A DNA stretch of 34,593 bases, taken from positions 1 through 34,593 of IMG/VR virus record IMGVR_UViG_3300009082_000042. One strand, written 5' to 3'. The stretch comes from a virus. Position 1 is the first letter of the stretch. The number at the start of each line of letters is the position of its first letter. Under the pieces are notes generated by a model that was not told where the DNA came from, did no database searches, and worked only from the letters and a program-made list of their open reading frames with translations. Position numbers and translations under genes: made by a program. Shown here in pieces: positions 1,311 to 2,195 of the stretch.

Positions 1311-1678
1311 AAAAGTGCGGCTCCCAACAAGGAAGCCTCGGAAGTTCCGGAGCGTAACACGAAACGACAACTTATCCGAGGACGTTCACATACACGCCTT
1401 GCGGCCTCTGTGTTACATCCTTGAATCCTTGTGCCTTTCTCCCTTGACATTCTTAAACCTTTCTTCCTTCGGTCTTCAGCCTTCAGCCTTGAATGTCTAC
1501 CCATTAGGGTAATGTGAGTATGCTCTACCGCTGAGCTATCGGCCCCCGTTGGAGGCCAAGCGGGAGTTGAACCCGCGACACTACTCTCATATCATTAGCA
1601 ATGATATTGCCATGTTCACAGGACACAGCGGCCTGTCGTGTTATCCCGGTTTTTATCTCTTGTTGTAACCGCACTTTT
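1311..1678 (-). ncRNA. Large structured RNA enclosing a permuted tRNA
   Basis: This approximately 370-base stretch has no credible gene. On the minus strand its ends pair: AAAAGTGCGG (1669-1678) with CCGCACTTTT (1311-1320), then CAACAAG (1659-1665) with CTTGTTG (1325-1331), then TAACACGA (1636-1643) with TCGTGTTA (1355-1362), all colinear. The downstream arm also contains GACATTC/GAATGTC (1491-1497 with 1446-1452), a GCC-GCAA-GGC tetraloop hairpin, and a crossing pair, CCTCGGA (1375-1381) with TCCGAGG (1336-1342), that would make a pseudoknot. The purine-rich loop near 1453-1490 has degenerate heptamers of AAGGCTG type. A circularly permuted group I intron around tRNA exons is one model. I could not place the canonical P7 or guanosine-site motifs, so the class is open. 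Confidence 0.65.
1516..1586 (-). tRNA. Circularly permuted tRNA (3' half before 5' half), His-like acceptor
   Basis: Reading the minus strand, first comes GAGTA (1582-1586, positions 39-43), a 5-base variable loop (1577-1581), the T arm GCGGG-TTCAACT-CCCGC (1560-1576), 3' acceptor TTGGCCT (1553-1559) and C73 (1552). After a 5-base linker comes G-1 (1546), 5' acceptor GGGCCGA (1539-1545), T8 A9, D arm GCTC-AGCGGTA-GAGC (1522-1536), A26, and TACTC (1516-1520, positions 27-31). The acceptor pairs 7/7 (two G-U) and the anticodon stem 5/5, all at standard spacing. G-1 opposite C73 is the hallmark of tRNA-His. The anticodon loop is the break point and its sequence cannot be read with confidence. 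No second D arm or T arm lies nearby that would make two ordinary tRNAs. Confidence 0.7.
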
Positions 1679-1685
1679 ACATTCC

Positions 1686-2195
1686 TTAGATTAGGTCGGT
1701 TGTAGCGTTGACCACTTCGAGCGTTCTGTCGATCACGCCCGGCTCCGAATGATACATCATAAGCATTTCGTCGCGCTGAAGTGGGTTGTAGTACCTCCGT
1801 ATCTTTACCATCGTTTCCGTTCCCCCTGTTGACGACGGCAACTTGCCCTCCTTTAGTCCACGGTCAGTCAACATCGACCATGCGGCTATATCCAGCTTTG
1901 CCAGATCACGCCTACGATGTATCCACTCGGCTATTGTTTTTCTCACCACCTTGCCGCCGAGTTCCATATCCACCTCAGTAGAGATATTCGTTCTCTGTAT
2001 GGCTACGCGCAACTTGAGAATCTCCTTGTTGAGATCCGTGTGAGCCTGAAGCCATTGCCGTACCTGCTCGGCCTGATCCTGATATACTGGCGTTTCAAAG
2101 TCGAGATCAGCACAGTGCGCCGCTATCTTTTTACGCAGGTCGTCAGCCTTCATCTGAAACTCTTTGATCGTCTTCATTGCTTCGATTATCTTCAT
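1686..2195 (-). CDS. DIP1984-like protein
   Basis: The product is 169 aa and mostly helical, with an N-terminal coiled-coil-like region and the block INRTN-like AIQRTN, then WIHRRRDLAKLD near residues 111-122. This pattern matches the DIP1984 family of small bacterial and phage proteins, sometimes called septicolysin-like, whose function is not established. Ribosome site AAAGGA precedes ATG 2195. Its stop lies 8 bases before the first long-range helix of the downstream structured RNA. The family assignment is from remembered pattern, not a search. Confidence 0.55.
   Translation of the reverse strand: MKIIEAMKTIKEFQMKADDLRKKIAAHCADLDFETPVYQDQAEQVRQWLQAHTDLNKEILKLRVAIQRTNISTEVDMELGGKVVRKTIAEWIHRRRDLAKLDIAAWSMLTDRGLKEGKLPSSTGGTETMVKIRRYYNPLQRDEMLMMYHSEPGVIDRTLEVVNATTDLI

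Follow-up and report, generated by a model that had tools for sequence, protein, structure and literature searches.

A circularly permuted tRNA-like domain, probably an exchangeable module of an undescribed phage RNA beside a DUF6847-like gene

The locus: a permuted tRNA body inside a conserved phage RNA

In this work we have analysed a stretch of viral DNA of 34,593 nt (IMG/VR record IMGVR_UViG_3300009082_000042, positions 1 to 34,593; hereafter the window), in which a conserved RNA of roughly 350 nt lies on the minus strand, at about 1669-1321, beside a DUF6847-like gene (Table 1). Within this RNA, at 1586-1516 on the same strand, a T arm and a 3΄ acceptor half stand ahead of a 5΄ acceptor half and a D arm, and all four stems are paired. 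This swapped order had been put forward in the initial annotation, and every element that it named is present in the sequence; its pair counts for the acceptor (7/7) and the anticodon stem (5/5) are exact, and the cloverleaf spacing is correct. The acceptor reaches 8/8 pairs if the flanking C-G is included, while the T and D stems pair at 5/5 and 4/4. The acceptor halves, TTGGCCT (1559-1553) and GGGCCGA (1545-1539), are separated by CCAACGG, a short loop that contains CCA; the bases TA lie between GGGCCGA and the D arm, and a single A between the D arm and TACTC. In a thermodynamic fold of the whole element the pair probabilities of the T arm, the acceptor and the D arm are those of Table 1, and that of the anticodon stem is about 0.40. 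When the body was rotated in silico, ARAGORN accepted a tRNA at every join tried, and the anticodon that it gave varied with the arbitrary join.

Table 1. Features of the conserved RNA and of its neighbour gene in the window
Feature	Positions	Strand	Basis or remark
DUF6847-like gene adjoining the RNA	1686..2195	-	Possible protein partner; profile match, synteny
5΄ conserved motif GTTACAACAAGAGATAAAAACCGGG	1645..1669	-	Alignment of relatives; consensus CYTACAnnCAGAGATAAAAACYGG
P2 hairpin ACAGG..CCTGT	1618..1636	-	Comparison of relatives
Anticodon-stem-loop-like hairpin TATCA-TTGCTAA-TGATA	1590..1606	-	Sequence; 7-nt loop, U33, A37, would read GCU
Anticodon stem, 3΄ strand GAGTA	1582..1586	-	5/5 pairs with 1520-1516; own-versus-cross pairing test
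Variable loop GTGTC, 5 nt, between GAGTA and T arm	1581-1577	-	Sequence
T arm GCGGG-TTCAACT-CCCGC	1560..1576	-	Sequence; pair probability about 0.88 in fold
Acceptor hairpin TTGGCCT(C) / (G)GGGCCGA	1539..1559	-	Fold 0.73-0.99; covariation with relatives
D arm GCTC-AGCGGTA-GAGC	1522..1536	-	Sequence; fold probability 0.73
Anticodon stem, 5΄ strand TACTC	1516..1520	-	Own-versus-cross pairing; CAT/upstream ATG extension in constrained fold
Purine-rich region, AAG(G) about every 7-8 nt	1415..1490	-	Conserved in relatives
P3 hairpin, closing pairs CAC/GTG	1387..1412	-	Two-sided changes at all 3 pairs
P4 hairpin CCTCGGAtAAGTT..AACTTCCGAGG	1336..1381	-	Covariation, 95.8% of cells paired
P5 hairpin CTTCC-TTGTT-GGGAG, end of conserved RNA	1321..1335	-	Conserved; 90% of cells paired
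Match of covariance model R1 (3΄ domain of host RNA)	1320..1479	-	123.7 bits; window among 24 model-building sequences

In the unrotated window ARAGORN calls a tRNA-Ser(GCT) at 1551-1634, which scores 17.7 bits against the tRNA model, under the cut-off of 29. This apparent complete ordinary tRNA, which would use one of the two halves, is a false call: its 5΄ part coincides with a hairpin conserved in the surrounding RNA, and the remainder includes the T arm. It nonetheless contains a real anticodon-type hairpin (1606-1590), and that good GCU hairpin, together with the call itself, is what could be said for reading 1634-1551 as an ordinary but degenerate tRNA-Ser(GCU), with an unrelated half tRNA after it. 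Such an arrangement is disfavoured by the comparison of relatives and by the score, does not account for the 5/5 and 7/7 pairings within the permuted body, and seems to us extremely improbable. A match of the window to the tmRNA model covers the T arm alone, and a tmRNA was rejected on this ground.

The host RNA was found by fetching relatives of the gene at 1686-2195 and aligning the DNA beside it; all relatives are uncultured contigs, one of which (L122, an FCB-group MAG) comes from the genome collection. Their common layout is a 5΄ motif, the hairpin P2, a variable slot, a purine-rich AAG stretch and the hairpins P3-P5, which finish as AACTTnnnAGGCTTCC-nnnnn-GGGAG. At the P2 position the relatives have a hairpin, often with a GCGAYA-type loop; the P2 of the window has by itself a low pair probability in a single-sequence fold. 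The AAG(G) repeats may represent a protein-binding site present in multiple copies. When 24 sequences were aligned with MAFFT, blind to structure, 93.4% of the cells in the P3-P5 helices are paired and 49 cells carry two-sided changes versus 15.2 in shuffles, a signal that is abolished by sliding the helix partners; P5 shows no two-sided changes in the alignment of relatives. The model R1 detects 55 of the 57 DUF6847 loci of a first set, both misses being at contig ends, and 27/28 in a second set, one marginal at 16.6 bits, some of the positive loci having been collected only once the model existed; in other viral DNA, 364 kb in all, nothing exceeds 14 bits. No match to the host RNA was found in Rfam 15 (4227 families), neither in the window at gathering thresholds nor in five sources (L041, L043, L044, L052 and L001) with E up to 5. 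As judged by the comparison of related sequences, the host RNA is a previously undescribed, widespread structured phage non-coding RNA.

As a finder, a pattern search with the 5΄ motif was rejected, as it mostly matched unrelated coding sequence; its two matches in the genome collection are the real member L122 and a chance match in L121. In L124 (5691-5800) an apparently truncated RNA, in which the 5΄ motif is joined directly to AACTTCTGAGGCTTCCC, lies upstream of a DUF6847-like gene. The boxA is an element of rRNA antitermination, and a TTCTTTGAAA-like sequence resembling it immediately precedes the RNA in 13 of 54 members (among them L154, L156, L132, L136, L138, L147, L150 and L151); limited to these members and absent from the window, the boxA-like CTTTGA was discarded as a family feature.

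The RNA adjoins the DUF6847-like gene in nearly every phage contig with that gene, and may stand on either side of it. The window protein scores 20.6 bits against DUF6847, under the Pfam cut-off of 27, and 39 of its 46 relatives match the family. The AlphaFold model of the DUF6847-like protein is confident (pLDDT 94.8), and a fold search with it gave as sole result an uncharacterised Corynebacterium protein, 3kdq (TM 0.56); no DUF6847 relatives were found in isolated-phage records. Profile match and synteny make the DUF6847-like protein a possible partner of the RNA, which probably works with or near it.

Contents of the slot in the RNA family

What does the slot hold in other members of the family? 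Among 78 distinct members, 32 carry a complete normal-order tRNA, of many isotypes and with tRNA-model scores of up to 67.6 bits; 10 carry a permuted tRNA body; 26 have an anticodon-like hairpin and/or a T arm only, a class that rests on a relaxed hairpin search letting in some chance matches and that includes L180 and L185, near-complete by the tRNA model; and 10 contain nothing recognisable. With 26 reduced and 10 unrecognisable slots, the module is therefore dispensable for at least some of these RNAs. One slot, that of L141, houses two abutting tRNAs.

The permuted members are the window, L133 (=L043), L103, L172 (=L104), L110, L162 (=L105), L168, L165, L175 and L232. The break point falls in the anticodon loop in eight of the ten (type I) and in the variable loop in L165 and L175, which retain the anticodon arm after the D arm. 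The compensatory changes by which the initial annotation proposed to judge the pairing are found among these related phages. Their acceptor stems are unrelated (TTGGCCT/GGGCCGA, CTTCCC/GGGAAG, CACGCCC/GGGCGTG, CCCCCCC/GGGGGGG, GCCAC/GTGGC, TGGTT/AACCA, CCGCCCC/GGGGCGG, CCTCCCC/GGGGAGG and ATTCCCC/GGGGAAT), so that the halves match each other and not some common sequence, and the two halves of one member pair far better than do halves exchanged across members, both for the acceptor (0.90 vs 0.56, permutation p below 1e-4) and for the anticodon stem (0.91 vs 0.39, p = 0.0012). Searching for the whole T-acceptor-D pattern gave matches in 12 of 56 related slots, nine of them true on inspection and the other three beside complete tRNAs. 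Since 200 dinucleotide-preserving shuffles gave a mean of 0.015 per 56 slots, the permuted arrangement is not a product of chance.

Between L043 and L103 the differences inside the permuted body are confined to the loops; the acceptor hairpin of L168 is closed by a GAAA tetraloop, and several permuted members have CCA traces between the acceptor halves. Free hairpins resembling that at 1606-1590 occur in L133, L103, L172, L162, L168 and L110 (those of L110 and L162 come from the relaxed hairpin search), and most of the eight anticodon-broken members thus have a separate anticodon-type hairpin just upstream, L232 having none. In the slot of L175, which has a variable-loop permutation, the acceptor is followed by G-CCA and the D arm by a UUU-type anticodon loop; of all members, this one is the strongest candidate for processing into a two-piece tRNA.

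tRNA gene, relic or retained tRNA shape

The feature had originally been described as a circularly permuted tRNA gene, and from this description we retain the permuted tRNA body and not the gene. In a true permuted tRNA gene, circularisation or splicing of the transcript at the anticodon loop, together with trimming of the acceptor ends, would give a working tRNA. Correct cloverleaf spacing, perfect stems and the acceptance of the rotated versions by ARAGORN agree with it, and the G-CCA and UUU-type loop of L175 make a two-piece tRNA imaginable in that member. Against it, no flush join of the strands gives a 7-nt anticodon loop with U33 and R37 in six of the seven type-I members compared, window included (L105 is the exception, and L232, found later, was left out). 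In the window, the anticodon stem runs on as the helix ATG-A-GAGTA/TACTC-A-CAT in a constrained fold 0.2 kcal/mol above the optimum, and inspection of the junction revealed no bulge-helix-bulge. The GAAA tetraloop on the L168 acceptor, the embedding of the body in a larger conserved RNA, and the presence of RNA ligase genes, which splicing might need, in only 4 of 50 related records also speak against a gene. The feature is thus not well explained as a tRNA gene and probably is not one, and we regard the production of a working tRNA by this route as very unlikely. The window itself encodes an RNA ligase (PF09414, 54.8 bits) at 3-548 on the minus strand, truncated at the contig end; a role for it in splicing was dropped, given the 4/50 count.

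The permuted bodies could also be neutral remains, if the linker tolerates tRNA genes and tandem copies shed their outer halves, leaving apparent permutations without a role. Reduced tRNA parts are found in many slots, and the 26 reduced and 10 unrecognisable ones would also fit a tolerant linker collecting tRNA sequences, as would the tandem tRNAs of L141 and the CCA traces between acceptor halves. However, nearly all stems are intact in every permuted body (for each of which a recent origin is possible), different break points recur, and the L043/L103 body differences lie in loops only. We therefore hold a neutral origin to be unlikely.

We propose that this circularly permuted tRNA-like domain probably serves as an exchangeable central module of the undescribed RNA of about 350 nt beside the DUF6847-like gene. 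The permutation would have originated when a tRNA in the slot was duplicated in tandem and the outer halves were then lost, as suggested by the CCA traces between acceptor halves and by the two abutting tRNAs of the L141 slot. The module would fold as a tRNA elbow with its acceptor closed as a hairpin, would be attached to the host RNA via the anticodon stem, and would stay in it without ever being released as a tRNA. It may offer a tRNA shape, often plus a separate anticodon-type hairpin, to a tRNA-recognising factor, e.g. the ribosome, an RNase or a tRNA-modifying enzyme, and the DUF6847-like protein is possibly involved. From the sequence comparisons we infer that the module acts as a tRNA mimic that binds such factors, and the permuted members suggest that shape, not tRNA release, can be what is retained. 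This proposal is weakened by the pair probability of only about 0.40 for the anticodon stem of the window, by the absence of P4 from the single-sequence fold prediction, and by the dispensability of the module in at least some members.

A more tentative version, possible but less than even in our judgement, is that of an exchangeable tRNA module of a new phage ribonucleoprotein, made of the RNA and the DUF6847-like protein, into which the module is plugged by either end. Attachment by the acceptor would correspond to a normal tRNA, and attachment by the anticodon stem or variable loop to a permutation that has arisen repeatedly; in some members the module may be cut into a two-piece tRNA that remains in the complex.

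Natural RNA folds are rarely seen in circularly permuted form; here a single RNA family has several permutations at one and the same position, and its normal-order relatives allow direct comparison. The family is also an addition to the non-coding RNAs of phages, being widespread, so far undescribed and probably accompanied by a protein neighbour, and it illustrates how such elements are misannotated by tRNA finders.

Comparison with known permuted and tRNA-bearing RNAs

Circularly permuted tRNA genes occur in some algae and archaea. As in these genes, in the phage body the 3΄ half precedes the 5΄ half with full pairing of the stems. In contrast to them, it has no anticodon loop and no bulge-helix-bulge was seen, its acceptor is closed as a hairpin, and it lies inside a larger RNA.

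The initial annotation knew of no permuted tRNA in such a phage, and in this it overlooked YrlA, a tRNA mimic with the same permuted topology. YrlA is a bacterial Y RNA whose basal stem is bound by the Ro-like protein Rsr and whose tRNA-like domain binds PNPase (PMC8394870; PMC7790460). In Rfam with relaxed thresholds, window positions 1494-1602 match YrlA (RF02553) with 43.7 bits over the full model length (cut-off 69), because the tRNA-like topology is the same: T arm, acceptor hairpin and D arm are permuted alike and joined to the RNA via the anticodon-stem position. The docking of an effector on the module, as proposed above, would be comparable to that on the YrlA tRNA-like domain. The window domain differs in scoring below the cut-off and in being part of a larger RNA that has a conserved 3΄ domain of its own, and most members of the phage RNA hold a normal-order or partial tRNA at the same place.

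Could the phage RNA nevertheless be a YrlA, binding a Ro/Rsr protein that is encoded by the host or in a stretch of the phage genome that is missing here? The full-length match and the YrlA-like RNAs beside TROVE proteins in other phages would support this. However, neither the window nor any of its 13 syntenic relatives, records that are fragments, has a TROVE/Ro gene; the outer strands of the window align poorly with the YrlA model and show no clear conserved motif, so that the Ro-binding stem is not clear; tRNA arrays and control genomes also give weak YrlA matches; and the larger conserved RNA around the domain contains normal tRNAs in other members. With a score below the cut-off and no TROVE gene, membership is therefore not claimed, and we find it highly doubtful.

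TROVE genes were present in 13 of the 35 IMG/VR records fetched by a YrlA-type pattern, and a YrlA-like RNA and a TROVE protein occur in the same record in L007, L008, L012, L014, L016, L021, L029, L030, L033, L034, L040 and others. In Brevundimonas phage Gurke (ON529850.1; L002), at 156205-158197, the 463-aa 'hypothetical protein' GURKE_03090 matches TROVE/Ro and has two YrlA-like RNAs beside it; one of these is overlapped by the annotated tRNA-Ser GURKE_03100, which is below the tRNA cut-off and is probably misannotated. Ro ribonucleoproteins may be common in phages.

A tRNA-like fold outside translation is also found in the yjdF riboswitch aptamer (PMC9142559), which we liken to the module by the description of its fold; it belongs to a ligand-binding mRNA leader and has no reported link to the present RNA family.

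Similarly to GOLLD and ROOL, the present RNA is a large structured phage RNA with a conserved 3΄ domain, but it is much shorter and has other helices. A homo-oligomeric RNA cage is a mark of GOLLD and ROOL. No match to the GOLLD/ROOL Rfam models was obtained in the window at gathering thresholds, or in L041, L043, L044, L052 and L001 with E up to 5. Permuted tRNA modules have no mention in the part of the GOLLD report on which we draw (PMC12286853), where GOLLD linkers are described as sometimes holding a phage tRNA. This parallel suggests that structured phage RNAs whose linker carries a tRNA may be a recurring design.
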